Assembly: GCA_017792345.1 (NCBI GenBank)
Contig: CP051228.1
Coordinates: 1,364,001-1,428,000 of the forward strand
Reading direction: 5' to 3'
DNA: 64,000 nt
Origin: Mesoflavibacter sp.
GTDB taxonomy: Bacteria; Pseudomonadota; Alphaproteobacteria; UBA8366; Aestuariispiraceae
Below, one piece after another: positions 553 through 6,090 of this stretch. The notes under the pieces were generated by a model. That model saw nothing but the letters and a program-made list of their open reading frames with translations. It was not told the origin of the DNA and did no database searches. The translations under genes were made by a program, and so were the position numbers. Each line of letters begins with the position of its first letter. Within the stretch, counting starts at the first letter, position 1.

Positions 553-1741
553 CGGACACGCTCCAGGCCGATGCCGTCTTATCCAGGATCGCGACCGCCT
601 CGTCGATATGGGCTTCTTCGACGATCAGCGGCGGCAGAAGGCGAATGACATTCTCGCCCGCCCCGACGGTCAGCAGGCCGTTGTCGCGCAGGGCGTCGAT
701 GAATTTCAGGTTGGTGACGTCCGCCGAGCAGACCAGCCCCTGCATCAGACCCGCGCCGCGATGACCGGCGAAAACTTTCGGATGCTTGGCGATCAGGTCT
801 TCCAGACGGTTCCAGAAATAGGCGCCAACTTTCTCCACGCCTTCCAGGAATCCCGGGGCCAGAATGACATCCATCACGGCATTGCCGACCGCCATGGCCA
901 GCGGGTTGCCGCCGAAGGTCGTGCCATGCGTGCCGGGCGTCAGGCCGCGTGCGGCCTTTTCCGTCGCCAGGATGGCGCCCATCGGGAAGCCGCCGCCGAT
1001 ACCCTTGGCCGTGGCGATGGCGTCCGGTTCGATCCCAGCCCATTCATGGGCCCACATCTTGCCCGTTCGGCCGTTGCCCGACTGAACCTCGTCCAGGATC
1101 AGCAGGATACCGAACTCGTCCGCCGCCGCGCGCAGATCGCGCAGATACTGCAGCGCGCCGGGGCGCAGCCCGCCCTCGCCCTGGATCGGTTCGATCAGAA
1201 TGGCGGCCGTTTCCGGCCCGATGGCGTCGCGCAGGGCGTTCATGTTGCCGAAGGGCACATTGTCGAAGCCTTCGACCGCCGGACCGAACCCGTCGAGGTA
1301 TTTCTTGTTGTTCGCCGCGGCGATGGTCGCCAGCGAGCGGCCGTGGAAGGCCCCTTCGACGGTTACGACCCGGAACTTTTCCGGATGACCGTCAACCGCG
1401 TGATAGCGCCGCGCCAGCTTGATCAGCCCTTCCAGCGCCTCGACACCGGAATTGCAGAAGAACACGCGGTCGGCGAAAGACTTCTCCGTCAGCCGCCGGG
1501 CCAGTTTCTCACCGTCCGGAATGGTATACAGGTTCGTCGTGTGCCACAGCTTCCCGGCCTGGTCGGTCAGGGCCTTGACCAGATGCGGATGGGCATGGCC
1601 CAGCGCGTTCACGGCGATCCCGGCATAGAAGTCGAGATATCGTCGCCCGTCCGTATCCCACAGATAGACGCCTTCGCCCCGGTCCATCGCGATCGGCGAC
1701 CGGGCATAGGTGTTCATCACTGCGGATTGGGACTCAGACAT
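542..1741 (-). CDS. argD: Acetylornithine transaminase
   Basis: PLP-dependent class III aminotransferase that converts N-acetylglutamate semialdehyde to N-acetylornithine. It may also act on succinyldiaminopimelate, as known for the family. The protein has the typical opening for this enzyme ([18 protein letters not shown]), the cofactor segment [14 protein letters not shown] and the PLP lysine in [14 protein letters not shown] use the ATG at 1741 (399 residues, the usual length). A TTG nine codons upstream (1768) is in frame and possible, and the GAGGAG directly before the ATG sits too close to be an ideal ribosome site. A sigma-70-like promoter lies about 90 bp upstream, and argF follows with an overlap. 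Confidence 0.95.
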
Positions 1742-1825
1742 CTCCTCGTTCTCGCTTTTTCCTGACAATCCCGAAATCGCGTCGGGCGATCGATTACCGC
1801 CCTGATCCCGCGCCGGGAACGCGGG

Positions 1826-1854
1826 AAATTGCAGTCCTGCGCAGGTTAAGTCAA
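1826..1854 (-). promoter_or_regulatory. Candidate sigma-70 promoter of argD-argF
   Basis: Read on the minus strand: TTGACT (1854-1849), a 17-base spacer, then CAATTT (1831-1826). A short inverted repeat (CCCGCG/CGCGGG, 1806-1825) lies immediately downstream, so it would fall at the start of the transcript. The -10 match is only partial. The location between the oxidase stop at 1886 and argD fits. Confidence 0.45.
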
Positions 1855-1885
1855 CAATCTGAGGGATGCGCCCAGGGCAGGGAGG

Positions 1886-3865
1886 CTAGAAATTTTCCTT
1901 ATGGAAGCCGAAGCGGAAATCGGCGGCGGTCGCGGCCAGGATTTTCGCCAGCGGGGCCGGACCGCAGAAATAGACGTCGACCTGTTTGCCGGGATTCTCC
2001 TCCGCCACCCGTCGGAAGATCGCGCGCCAGTCCGGGCGGTCCAGATTGGTGCGGTTGCGCAGGCCCGTGAACAGGTCTCGGCCGATCTCGCTGTGATAGA
2101 CATCCATGGCCACATCCAGCGTGGCGGAGGTGACGTCCAGCTTCACCCCGGTCAGATAGACCTGCGCATCCAGCAACGCGCCGTCCGGATCCTCCGCCTC
2201 CAGCCCCGAAATCATGTCCGAAAACCATTCGAACGCGTATTGATCGCGGTTCATCCAGACGAAATGAACCTTCTTCAGGCCCAGATCCGTGTCGCCGGCG
2301 GCGCGGCGGCGGAAGACGGATTTCAGGATCGCGGCAAAGGGCGTGACGCCGATCCCGGCGCCGATCAGCACCGCGACCTCGGATTTGAAGATATGCGTGC
2401 TGGGCGTGCCGTAGGGTCCGTCGATATAGGCGTGGCCCAGATCGGCGTGCTGCGCCTTGGCATGGCCGTGCAATCGCTTCGTCCAGTTGCCCAATCCCCG
2501 GACATGGACGGACAGGATGCCGCTTTCCTCCGGACAGGTGGTGACCGTGAACGGATGCCATTCGCGCTTGGAGATTGGCGGATACTTCACGAAGACATAG
2601 TCGCCCGGCTGATACTTGTAGCCGTCGGGCAGTTGCACCTCCAACCGCGTCACCGAGGACGGCAGCGGTTCGGCCGCGCTGACCAGGAAGGCCCGGCGGG
2701 TATGGCGGAAGCGGATCAGCCGTTCCGCGATATAGCCCAGGATCGGTACGCCGGCCCAGATCCAGAAGACCGGTCCATGCAGCAGGGCCAGCACGAACCA
2801 CAGCAGATAGAGCATATGGGTGAAGTAGAAGAGTTCGAACTTCCCACTGCGCCGAATCCAATCCAGCGCGCAGATCCACATGACCAGAAAGGCGATCATC
2901 AGGATCAGGCCCGTCAGCCCGGCCGAGGTGCCGAACAGGTAGGCCGGGATGCCGCCGTCCAGGGTCGCGTAATTCGCCAGATGCGCGGCGGTGTGCAGGC
3001 CCGCAAAGCCCATCATCGCGTGACCGACCAGCTTGTGGAAGGCGATGGCATGGTCGACCGGCACGACCTCACCGAGGACCGAATGCCGAACCCGGGTCAG
3101 CAGGTGCCGCAGCATCGGAATCAGGATCAGCGCGCCGTTGAAGTTCAGGCAGGCCCCGCCGCCGCGCGCGATCTGGACATAGATATTCGCCCCGGCCTCG
3201 GCATAGGTGACCATGGCGTTCGCGAATAGGGCCACATTGACGGCAGCATAGAGCAGCAGGAAGACGGCGGCGGCGCGGTTGCTGGCGATCTTCTGCCCCA
3301 CTATGCGCAACCGGTCGCCCAGGCTCGGCCCGCGCTTCGGGCGAGGCGGGGGCGGCATCAGCATGGCGGTCGCGGAACGCGACATCTGCGTCTTCAGCTT
3401 GGGATAGGCGTCCAGGACGCTCTGAAACTCCGCGAAATCGATACCGCCATCGCCGTCCGTATCCGCCCGCCGGAACAGCGCATCGGTCAGCCCGTTGACG
3501 GCGACATCCGGCAGGCTGGCCCCATGTTGTGCCAGACTGGCCGACAGGATGCGGTGCAACTCATCCCAGTCGATCTCGCCGCTGTCGTCGGGGTCGTGGA
3601 GATCGAAGGCGAAGCGCAGCCGATCCTCTTCCTTGCCCCGCACGATCTTCTCGGCGAAGGCGATGAATTCATTCGTGTCGATCTCGCCGCTGCCGTCGCG
3701 GTCGACCATCGCGAACAGACGCCCGGCGTAATAGGGGTCGCGCAGGCCCAGCGCCGCGCCCAGTTCCGTGGGATCAATGGACGCATCCGCCCCCGCGATT
3801 TCATCGAAACGCTTACGGATCGTGTCGAGAAACGCGCGGTCTTCCGGCGTCAGATCGTCGGTCAT
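1886..3865 (-). CDS. NOX5-type NADPH oxidase with N-terminal EF-hands
   Basis: Predicted membrane flavocytochrome moving electrons from NADPH through FAD and two b-type hemes to oxygen, making superoxide. The 659 residues hold three canonical EF-hand loops (55-66 DRDGSGEIDTNE, 91-102, 135-146), then about six membrane segments (about 195-385). Heme-ligand histidines are spaced as in human NOX2: H277, H291 and H295 in one helix, H350 and H363 (13 apart) in another. The FAD motif HPFT is at 437-440, NADPH motifs GAGIGVTPF at 502-510 and CGP at 634-636. The last residues, FHKENF, match the conserved NOX C-terminus. The start at 3865 has GGGGGA five bases upstream. A TATAGT (-10-like) lies at 3899-3894. 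A plain ferric reductase is less likely given the EF-hands and tail. Confidence 0.9.
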   Translation of the reverse strand: MTDDLTPEDRAFLDTIRKRFDEIAGADASIDPTELGAALGLRDPYYAGRLFAMVDRDGSGEIDTNEFIAFAEKIVRGKEEDRLRFAFDLHDPDDSGEIDWDELHRILSASLAQHGASLPDVAVNGLTDALFRRADTDGDGGIDFAEFQSVLDAYPKLKTQMSRSATAMLMPPPPRPKRGPSLGDRLRIVGQKIASNRAAAVFLLLYAAVNVALFANAMVTYAEAGANIYVQIARGGGACLNFNGALILIPMLRHLLTRVRHSVLGEVVPVDHAIAFHKLVGHAMMGFAGLHTAAHLANYATLDGGIPAYLFGTSAGLTGLILMIAFLVMWICALDWIRRSGKFELFYFTHMLYLLWFVLALLHGPVFWIWAGVPILGYIAERLIRFRHTRRAFLVSAAEPLPSSVTRLEVQLPDGYKYQPGDYVFVKYPPISKREWHPFTVTTCPEESGILSVHVRGLGNWTKRLHGHAKAQHADLGHAYIDGPYGTPSTHIFKSEVAVLIGAGIGVTPFAAILKSVFRRRAAGDTDLGLKKVHFVWMNRDQYAFEWFSDMISGLEAEDPDGALLDAQVYLTGVKLDVTSATLDVAMDVYHSEIGRDLFTGLRNRTNLDRPDWRAIFRRVAEENPGKQVDVYFCGPAPLAKILAATAADFRFGFHKENF

Positions 3866-3963
3866 GGAAATCCCCCAAATCATCCCCGACGCCACTATAC
3901 CCCGCGTCGCACGGAATGGGGTCTTTAATCCAAGCCTTCGGCAAAAGGTGTTTCGATCAGGTG

Positions 3964-5142
3964 CTACGGCCCGTCATAGAGCCAGGCCAGTCCTTCATAG
4001 GATTGTTCCGGTGTGCGCATGCCCAGGACATGATTGCGCAGATCGGCCCGCACATCGGCGGCGTGATAGATCTCACCCAACAGGCGCGCCATCAACTGCA
4101 CCCGTGCGGTGCGCAGATAGCGGGCGTCGCGATAGGCCTCGAAAGCGCGGGGGAAATCGTCGCCGGCCTGCTCCAGGAAATCGGCCAAGCAGACCGCGTC
4201 CTCCGTCGCCATGCAGGCGCCCTGCGCAAAATATTGCAGCATCGGATGCGCGGCGTCGCCCAACAGGACAACATTGCCCTGGAACCAATCCCGCACCGGC
4301 TCGCGGTCACACAGAACCCAATACCGCCAGTCGGTGATGCGCGACAGCAGGCTCGCGGGGCGCGGATCGACGCCTTCGAACCGCTGCATCAACTCGTCCC
4401 GGTCGCCGGTCAGATCCCAGCCTTCGACATAGCGATCGCTGTGGAACACCGCGACCATGTTGAACAGTTCCTTCCGGCGCAGCGGGTAATGCACCAGATG
4501 GGTTTTCGGCCCGGCCCACAGGCAGGCGGAATCCCAGCGCACATTCTCCGGCACCTGGTCATAGGGCAGCACGGCGCGATAGGCGATATGGCCCGACACG
4601 CGGGGCGGCCCGTCGTTCAGCATCTGCGCCCGGATCTTGGACCACAGCCCGTCCGCGCCGATCAGCGCCCGGCCCTCGCGCGCGGTCCCGTCCGCAAGCC
4701 GGACCGTCACCCGGTCGCCCTGGTCGGTGTAGCCGGTCACCTTGGCCTCGGTCTCCAGCACGATCCGGTCGTCCAGTTCCTGACAGGAATTCAGCAGGGT
4801 CGTGTGCAGATCGCCGCGATGGGTGACGGCATAGGGTTTGCCGAACCGCGCCTCGAAGGGCTGCTTCAGCGGGACCTTCATCACCGCCTCACCGGTCAGG
4901 CTGTCCATGAAGCGGATATCGTCGACGAAAACCGCGTCGGCGCGGATCGCATCCTCGATGCCCAGACGCTCGAACATGCGGAAGACATTGGGGCTCAACT
5001 GGATCCCGGCGCCGATCTCGCCAAAGGCGCGGCCCTGTTCCAACACATGAACCCGGCGCCCGGTCAGGGCGAGCGCCCGCGCCGCCGCCAGCCCGCCGAT
5101 TCCGCCGCCGACGATCAGAATGGGTGCGTCCTGTGCCGCCAT
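3964..5142 (-). CDS. FAD-dependent aromatic monooxygenase (3-hydroxybenzoate 6-hydroxylase/salicylate hydroxylase type)
   Basis: Group A flavin monooxygenase of 392 residues. It has the N-terminal dinucleotide motif VGGGIGGLAAA (about 11-21), the middle segment GADGLWSKIR and the FAD ribityl-binding motif GDAAHPMLQYFAQGA near residue 285. These place it with NAD(P)H-dependent hydroxylases of simple aromatic acids. The substrate cannot be read from sequence, and no ring-cleavage genes lie nearby. The ATG at 5142 has GGAGGGG upstream. It follows the DMT transporter gene by 33 bp on the same strand, so co-transcription is likely. Confidence 0.85.
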   Translation of the reverse strand: MAAQDAPILIVGGGIGGLAAARALALTGRRVHVLEQGRAFGEIGAGIQLSPNVFRMFERLGIEDAIRADAVFVDDIRFMDSLTGEAVMKVPLKQPFEARFGKPYAVTHRGDLHTTLLNSCQELDDRIVLETEAKVTGYTDQGDRVTVRLADGTAREGRALIGADGLWSKIRAQMLNDGPPRVSGHIAYRAVLPYDQVPENVRWDSACLWAGPKTHLVHYPLRRKELFNMVAVFHSDRYVEGWDLTGDRDELMQRFEGVDPRPASLLSRITDWRYWVLCDREPVRDWFQGNVVLLGDAAHPMLQYFAQGACMATEDAVCLADFLEQAGDDFPRAFEAYRDARYLRTARVQLMARLLGEIYHAADVRADLRNHVLGMRTPEQSYEGLAWLYDGP

Positions 5143-5175
5143 CCGTGTCCCCTCCGGTTGCTGTTTTGCCCGGGA

Positions 5176-6090
5176 TTATGCCTTGGCCCGGCGGCGCGGC
5201 AAGACCTCCATCACCCCCGCCCCGGTGATCAGCGCCGCCCCCAGGGCCTGACGCGGACCGAAGGGTTCTTCCGGCAGCAACAATGCGGCGGAAATCACCG
5301 CGACGACGATCTCGCCCAACAGCAGGATGCCGACCGTCGCCGGGGGCAGCCGTTTCGCCCCCCAGATGGTCAGAACATAAATCGGGATCAGCAGCACCAT
5401 CGCCAGCAGGAAGAAGGCGGCGTTCGTGTCCATCACCGTATCCAGTCCCGGCGCGCGGCCGATATCCACCGCCGGAAAGGCGGCAATCAGAAGCGCGCTG
5501 GACAGGACGGTTCCGATCACGAAACAGAAGGACAATTCGAAGGTCGGAACCTTGCGGCCGACAAAGATGCGGGTCGATCCGACGGACCAGGCGATCCCCG
5601 CCGCGATGGCCATCCAATCGCCCAGCGATTCCGGCAGCGGCAGGCCGCTATCGGCTTCCAGCACGACCATCAGCCCGGCGAAGCCGAACAGCAGCGCCCC
5701 GGCCCGGCGCGCCGTCATCCGCTCGCCCAGCCAGATCAGCCCGATGGCGGTGCTCCAGGCCGGCGACAGATAGAACAGCAGGATCGCGCGCACGACCTCG
5801 GTCAGGTTCAGGCTGATGCCGTAGAGGCTGAGCGCAAGCCCCATCAGGAGACCGCTGAGCGCCATGCCGCCGATCCCGTCCAACAGCCGCCGCCAGCGCC
5901 ACAGGGCGATGGGCAGCAACACCAGAAACACGGCGCCGTTCAGGACCAGGGACGGCCAGGCCTTCTCGATCCCCTCCGCCTCCATCTGGCGCATCGGAAT
6001 CCAGTACAGCCCCCACAGGACGGAGCTGAGCAGGATGGCAAGGCTGGGCATAAGGGGCGCGGATGGCGGGGGCGCCGGGCGATCGGACAT
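5176..6090 (-). CDS. DMT-superfamily (EamA-type) transporter
   Basis: Inner-membrane protein of 304 residues with about ten hydrophobic helices arranged as two EamA repeats (about 15-150 and 165-295). The first repeat opens with the characteristic ILLSSVLWGLYWIPMR. Such proteins export or import small metabolites, and the substrate is unknown. It sits 29 bp after the uracil-DNA glycosylase gene and 33 bp before the FAD monooxygenase gene, all leftward, suggesting one transcript. The C-terminus is basic (PRRRAKA). Confidence 0.85.
   Translation of the reverse strand: MSDRPAPPPSAPLMPSLAILLSSVLWGLYWIPMRQMEAEGIEKAWPSLVLNGAVFLVLLPIALWRWRRLLDGIGGMALSGLLMGLALSLYGISLNLTEVVRAILLFYLSPAWSTAIGLIWLGERMTARRAGALLFGFAGLMVVLEADSGLPLPESLGDWMAIAAGIAWSVGSTRIFVGRKVPTFELSFCFVIGTVLSSALLIAAFPAVDIGRAPGLDTVMDTNAAFFLLAMVLLIPIYVLTIWGAKRLPPATVGILLLGEIVVAVISAALLLPEEPFGPRQALGAALITGAGVMEVLPRRRAKA

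Follow-up and report, generated by a model that had tools for sequence, protein, structure and literature searches.

NOX5 is the calcium-switched NADPH oxidase of animals. The question raised by this locus is whether an alphaproteobacterial genome encodes a genuine bacterial NOX5, and whether such an enzyme would pass its electrons to oxygen. A NOX5-like gene had been proposed in an earlier note on the stretch of DNA analysed here (64,000 nucleotides, hereafter the window), and the presence of a NOX5-type gene at 1886-3865 was confirmed. The gene is termed noxA below and its features are collected in the table, in which coordinates are window positions and features of the minus strand are numbered on the forward strand.

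Table. Features of noxA and related genes (window positions, except for the last line, which lies outside the window).
Feature	Position	Strand	Basis or remarks
noxA, EF-hand NADPH oxidase (NOX5-like), 659 aa	1886..3865	-	ORF, Pfam, alignment to solved structures
Degenerate EF-hand 1, about residues 25-36	3758..3793	-	Alignment to human NOX5
EF-hand loop 2, residues 55-67	3665..3703	-	Pfam, loop pattern
EF-hand loop 3, residues 91-103	3557..3595	-	Pfam, loop pattern
EF-hand loop 4, residues 135-147, Gly at loop position 7	3425..3463	-	Pfam, loop pattern
Membrane domain, six predicted helices, residues 197-389; heme His 277, 291, 350, 363; oxygen-site R234 and H295; T318-G319; W356	2699..3277	-	Pfam, alignment, model
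FAD-binding domain, residues 397-489	2399..2677	-	Pfam FAD_binding_8
NAD(P)H-binding domain, residues 497-644	1934..2377	-	Pfam NAD_binding_6
Segment matching the NOX5 EF-hand-binding region, D577 to D597	2075..2137	-	Alignment; role from PMC7317449
C-terminus FHKENF with terminal Phe	1889..1906	-	Sequence
FAD_binding_3 monooxygenase-type gene beside noxA	3964..5142	-	Pfam; accompanies noxA in variable slot, any functional link hypothetical
NoxB of the window's genome, EF-hand NOX with altered oxygen-site residues	L044:7912-9993 (G000:C1, 43911-45992)	-	Outside the window

The 659-residue frame starts with an ATG at 3865, with a GGGGGA run shortly before it; a longer frame from a GTG at 3895 is possible. 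The Pfam domains found above cut-off follow the order of NOX5: EF-hand_1 (E 2.7e-18, three stretches), Ferric_reduct (E 1.7e-13), FAD_binding_8 (E 3.6e-17) and NAD_binding_6 (E 1.5e-24). The dehydrogenase comprises FAD and NAD(P)H domains and its C-terminal residue is Phe. Among the 14 Pfam matches with E up to 1, no DUOX-type N-terminal peroxidase-like domain was found. The motifs given in the earlier note were all recovered, namely heme His spaced by 14 and 13 residues (H277/H291 and H350/H363), HPFT (residues 437-440), CGP (residues 634-636) and a NOX-type C-terminus, FHKENF.

Three ligand-complete EF loops, also reported in that note, are acidic at ligand positions 1, 3 and 12. The strict PROSITE EF-hand pattern is matched by two of the three, and EF4 departs from it in having Gly, an unusual residue there, at position 7 of the loop; at least one such EF loop was present in 23 of 10,000 shuffled NoxA proteins. 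An additional degenerate EF-hand (about residues 25-36), previously missed, aligns with EF1 of human NOX5, so that the count becomes one plus three, as in human NOX5, whose EF-hands are described as one degenerate and three canonical (PMC11088703). The activity of the cyanobacterial csNOX5 increases with Ca2+, and replacement of D611 or D631 strongly reduces or abolishes the Ca2+ activation (PMC7317449); the same pair is numbered 639/649 in PMC11088703. The counterparts in NoxA are D577 and D597, which were placed via human D638/D658 (PMC11088703) and alignment to human NOX5.

Four positions (His101, His119, Thr178 and Gly179, in NOX2 numbers) separate ROS-generating NOX from metalloreductases (Zhang et al., 2013, PMC3591440), and this signature is complete in NoxA (H277, H295, T318 and G319). 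Published descriptions of the oxygen-reducing centre name two His and one Arg close to the outer heme (PMC8956913, PMC11564096). By alignment, it corresponds to H291, H295 and R234 in NoxA. The csNOX5 counterparts of the oxygen-site Arg and His are presumably R256 and H317. The alignment register was set by csNOX5 W378, which is printed in the literature (including PMC11088703). All 11 tested positions were kept in NoxA (R, H, H, H, T, G, H, W, H, D and D), as was the terminal F. These conserved residues strongly suggest that NoxA would be under Ca2+ control, with superoxide as its output.

The same positions were scored across the bacterial EF-hand NOX rows, including those of NoxB, a sister copy described below. 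Seven bacterial rows in which the Arg/His site is intact have Ser at the Thr178 position (six from cyanobacteria, one from Spirochaetes), as do three of five NoxB rows, and Thr178 is therefore not universal. Both the Arg and the His of the oxygen site are kept in 14/22 rows; the eight rows without the full pair are the five of NoxB and three of the four Myxococcota rows. In these last (L025, L029 and L031, so labelled in their records) the His is replaced by Phe, Phe and Tyr, respectively, and L031 also lacks the Arg. These replacements are apparently independent of those in NoxB.

The best sequence match of NoxA among solved structures was human NOX5 (E 4.3e-134), spanning the EF-hands, the membrane domain and the dehydrogenase; the dehydrogenase domain of csNOX5 came second (1e-82), and the membrane part alone matched the csNOX5 transmembrane domain at 3.7e-62. 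A structure prediction and a NOX/ferric-reductase tree, both proposed in the earlier note, were run. The AlphaFold2 model, built with 14 sequences, had a mean pLDDT of 83.8 and a pTM of 0.74, and contained the six helices of the membrane domain. Foldseek ranked human NOX5 (8u87) as the best match of the predicted fold (E 2.7e-40), followed by DUOX1, NOX2 and csNOX5, with SpNOX (Streptococcus pneumoniae NOX) lower (E 5.5e-12). Superposition on full-length human NOX5 was loose (rmsd 7.3-10.2), against 2.0-3.0 on csNOX5 domains, which moving domains or an uncertain domain arrangement in the model would explain.

For the tree, the outgroup consisted of five alphaproteobacterial proteins and no eukaryotic FRE; they are called FRE-like here as a label for FRD-FNR proteins without EF-hands, to which no function is assigned. 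NoxA fell in the EF-NOX/NOX group and was split from all five FRE-like proteins at 100/100, so that the position among ferric reductases, named in the earlier note as contrary to its reading, was not observed with this set. The NOX5-like assignment thus stands on the agreement of sequence match, structural match, tree placement, NOX signature, oxygen-site residues and the two regulatory Asp. Within the tree, NoxA paired with a copy from a second genome of the genus (G003, 90% identity) and with a Rhodospirillaceae MAG protein (L016, 62%). This group joined NoxB at 99/97 (98/96 with rows added) to form an alphaproteobacterial clade, in which the NoxB stem branch is long (0.86 and 0.91 in the two trees). 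In both trees, warnings were raised for long branches and uneven composition, which limits interpretation to the starred groups. For the relative placement of the two human proteins (NOX5 and NOX2) and the groups of bacterial sequences, p-AU values ranged from 0.155 to 0.527, without one arrangement being favoured; a clade of NoxA and metazoan NOX5 without NOX2 gave 0.155, with two human rows. A direct cyanobacterial origin of the NoxA clade was considered. Under the model applied, the corresponding joining was rejected (p-AU 0.002), the test groups having been chosen after the first tree had been viewed.

A collection of genome contigs was scanned with two peptide patterns, which miss some relatives, and EF-hand NOX was confirmed in 17 of 52 candidate stretches (17 loci). 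Six loci are alphaproteobacterial, four of them being NoxB of the window's genus; the remainder comprise four cyanobacterial loci, four loci spread over three MAGs labelled Myxococcota, and single loci labelled Burkholderiales, Spirochaetes and 'bacterium'. Most of these loci are MAG contigs, and the taxon labels were taken as deposited. In searches of genomes, a match was found in 6/14 at the level of the family and 3/385 at that of the class, in both cases all from the window's genus, and in 1/398 at that of the phylum, the window's own genome. The gene is thus unusual for its class. The corresponding counts were 5/244 for the cyanobacterial phylum and 2/235 for the phylum to which the Myxococcaceae MAG belongs; known positives are included in both. 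Carriage on a plasmid was considered and set aside, as no tblastn match was obtained at E 1e-20 in 72,556 plasmid records, a set that may lack close relatives of the window's genome.

Searches of open-licence papers returned no report of EF-hand NOX5 in Alphaproteobacteria, none of NOX5 as an EF-hand NADPH oxidase in Myxococcota, and unrelated titles only for NADPH oxidase together with superoxide in Rhodospirillaceae. A 2017 paper found 996 prokaryotic NOX-like sequences, and some of the sequences presented here may already be catalogued there. Bacterial NOX5 is described in the papers found as few, mainly cyanobacterial sequences; it is also found, rarely, in records of Alphaproteobacteria, Burkholderiales, Spirochaetes and Myxococcota. 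By itself NoxA is a new representative of an established class, bacterial NOX5, from hosts in which these searches found none reported, and the more novel elements are its pairing with NoxB and the wider spread. The few bacterial NOX5-like sequences, including that of Acaryochloris marina, have been placed among eukaryotes and a transfer from eukaryotes proposed (PMC3591440, PMC5676040); NOX5 has been published as having reached cyanobacteria from a eukaryote (PMC9421330). The multi-phylum spread invites a re-examination of this proposed transfer.

The noxA gene lies in a slot between argD and a uracil-DNA glycosylase-like gene (named by eye) whose content varies within the genus. In the window (1886-6090) and in G003 the slot holds NoxA, the FAD_binding_3 protein and an EamA transporter; in G002, G004 and G005 the glycosylase-like gene directly follows argD, and in G001 it is occupied by a gene that resembles a CoA-transferase by eye, together with a relative of the window's transporter. 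An operon partner was sought by inspection of ORFs at the window, G003, the NoxB locus, L016 and L019, with Pfam searches on six, and was discarded, no neighbour being common beyond the window and G003. At the same five loci no obvious ROS enzyme or Ca2+ transporter was seen beside the NOX gene. A promoter and terminator scan of 1700-4100 gave nothing above shuffled expectation. At L019:5962-7942, in another Rhodospirillaceae MAG, a NoxA-like gene is frameshifted over two overlapping frames, by assembly error or decay.

All six genomes of the genus searched contain NoxB, with an interrupted frame in the G004 assembly, and two of them (G000, the window's own, and G003) contain in addition a NoxA of the window type. 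NoxA sits in a species-variable slot and is absent from most of these genomes; it is therefore accessory, and NoxB is present throughout. NoxB is about 46% identical to NoxA and has the same architecture, with four heme His, the dehydrogenase and the terminal Phe, and forms the sister clade described above; its three EF loops all fit the strict pattern. It differs from NoxA in that the oxygen-site Arg is replaced by Gln, the His by Tyr and the first regulatory Asp by Glu, in 5/5 intact rows (L012, L013, L020, L021 and L026). The interrupted copy (L030) has equal QGAA and HVGGY stretches. Without the oxygen-site Arg and His, NoxB would probably use O2 less efficiently or pass electrons to another acceptor, and these replacements suggest that it probably differs from NoxA in acceptor or in rate. 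Two points call for caution. Human NOX5 also departs at the Arg position, which is Lys, and SpNOX, described as lacking the whole oxygen site, is still active in cytochrome c assays (PMC11564096).

At the NoxB locus in the window's genome, the genes that come next are one of the glyoxalase family and one with hexapeptide repeats, and an ORF on the plus strand a few kb away (L044:14361-15761) appears by eye reverse transcriptase-like, with a YIDD motif. Three NOX copies had seemed to be present in this genome; this count was set aside, as the second and third matches encode one identical protein and sit in the repeated ends of the contig. The ends of G000:C1 repeat over roughly 59 kb (1-59132 versus about 4849132-4907657; L042, L043, L046 and L047). 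The bases compared were identical (2869/2869 and 3000/3000); the offsets are not equal but vary by a few hundred bases, which places small indels between. The simplest reading is probably an untrimmed circular assembly, in which case the genome has two NOX genes and gene counts in the end region are doubled; a real duplication is a possible alternative.

From the domain make-up, key residues, predicted fold and tree placement observed for NoxA, we consider it to be, with a probability of about 0.7, a genuine bacterial NOX5, i.e., a Ca2+-sensing, single-chain inner-membrane enzyme that passes electrons to O2 and delivers superoxide into the periplasm. The cytosolic EF-hand domain would sense a rise in cytosolic Ca2+ and dock on the dehydrogenase domain via the D577-D597 segment. 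Electrons would then pass from NAD(P)H to FAD, to the inner heme (H277/H350), to the outer heme (H291/H363) and to O2 at R234/H295. The superoxide would be released into the periplasm; the cell being Gram-negative, the product would enter this compartment first, which corrects the earlier note. The Ca2+ activation, docking, NADPH use, superoxide product and orientation are proposed by analogy with csNOX5 and human NOX5. The Cu/Zn SOD family had no match in the window's genome (the control was positive in 4/14 named genomes), so the product would not be quenched by a periplasmic SodC. Ca2+ entry on envelope damage or contact as the trigger, and signalling or a competitive burst as the output, are speculative.

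Even for the model enzyme, superoxide as the product deserves some reserve, because csNOX5 was assayed by cytochrome c reduction (PMC7317449) and direct, O2-free reduction of cytochrome c is described for SpNOX (PMC11564096); both enzymes may use other acceptors (PMC11031084). NoxA could accordingly be a Ca2+-regulated transmembrane reductase for ferric iron, a quinone or a periplasmic protein, with superoxide at most a by-product. This would agree with the ferric reductase activity and O2-independent cytochrome c reduction of SpNOX, whose authors leave a non-O2 physiological acceptor open (PMC11564096), with the outer heme being openly accessible through short loops in SpNOX and csNOX5 (PMC11031084), and with a sister copy of altered oxygen site in the same genome. 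We nevertheless regard it as unlikely, since NoxA keeps the oxygen-site Arg and His that both NoxB and SpNOX lack, as well as the His119-type and Thr178-type residues tied to ROS-generating NOX by Zhang et al. (PMC3591440).

That NoxA is an ordinary ferric reductase (FRE) fused to EF-hands is hardly credible. The Pfam names of its parts (Ferric_reduct, 'Ferric reductase NAD binding domain') and the deposition of csNOX5 as 'Putative ferric reductase' would suit such a fusion, but names of the Ferric_reduct type are superfamily names, and the FRE-like proteins separated from NoxA in the tree lack both the His119-type His and the Thr178-type Thr (5/5). A recent, non-functional or passing import is very improbable as well: it would fit the presence of NoxA in 2/6 genus genomes, the changing slot and the frameshifted relative at L019, but the NoxA frame is open with every tested residue in place, the G003 copy likewise keeps them all, and the NoxA/NoxB clade is alphaproteobacterial.

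Beyond the reading of NoxA as a bacterial NOX5, it is tentatively proposed, as a possibility for which the odds are well below even, that the genus possesses two Ca2+-switched transmembrane electron exporters of common ancestry: an O2-reducing accessory NoxA, and a genus-wide NoxB with a dismantled oxygen site that would feed another periplasmic acceptor. On this view, EF-hand NOX would be an ancient bacterial family, retained patchily across several phyla, and not the product of one eukaryote-to-cyanobacterium transfer. The pair amounts to a natural experiment, in which an equal calcium switch occurs with and without the oxygen-site residues, and could reveal what NOX5-type enzymes do in bacteria. 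Extracellular superoxide of marine bacteria is well documented, but according to a 2019 account the only enzyme identified for it in these organisms was a peroxidase from a single Roseobacter strain (PMC6414704). What SpNOX and csNOX5 do in the cell is, by a published account, not known (PMC11031084). The genus includes a named strain, Pacificispira spongiicola KN72, which has NoxB only, and the role of a bacterial NOX could be addressed there by gene removal.

Compared with known systems, SpNOX shares the bacterial NOX core fold with NoxA but is described as lacking EF-hands, constitutively active and devoid of a canonical oxygen site (PMC11564096); NoxA has both the EF-hands and that site. 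Human NOX5 (6sz5, 8u7y, 8u85-8u87) has the same one degenerate and three canonical EF-hands and an equal domain order, with 40% identity over 638 aligned columns. It differs from NoxA in being eukaryotic, in having Lys where NoxA has the oxygen-site Arg, with Val at the position of W378, and in the longer insertions of its dehydrogenase domain. The closest characterised bacterial relative is csNOX5 (Cylindrospermum stagnale; PDB 5o0t, 5o0x and 8cak), published as Ca2+-activated, in line with the earlier statement that EF-hand NOX is known in cyanobacteria. EF-hands, a di-heme core, the dehydrogenase, the oxygen site and the two regulatory Asp are common to csNOX5 and NoxA; csNOX5 is cyanobacterial, and its close cyanobacterial relatives, 46-48% identical to NoxA, have Ser and not Thr at the Thr178 position.
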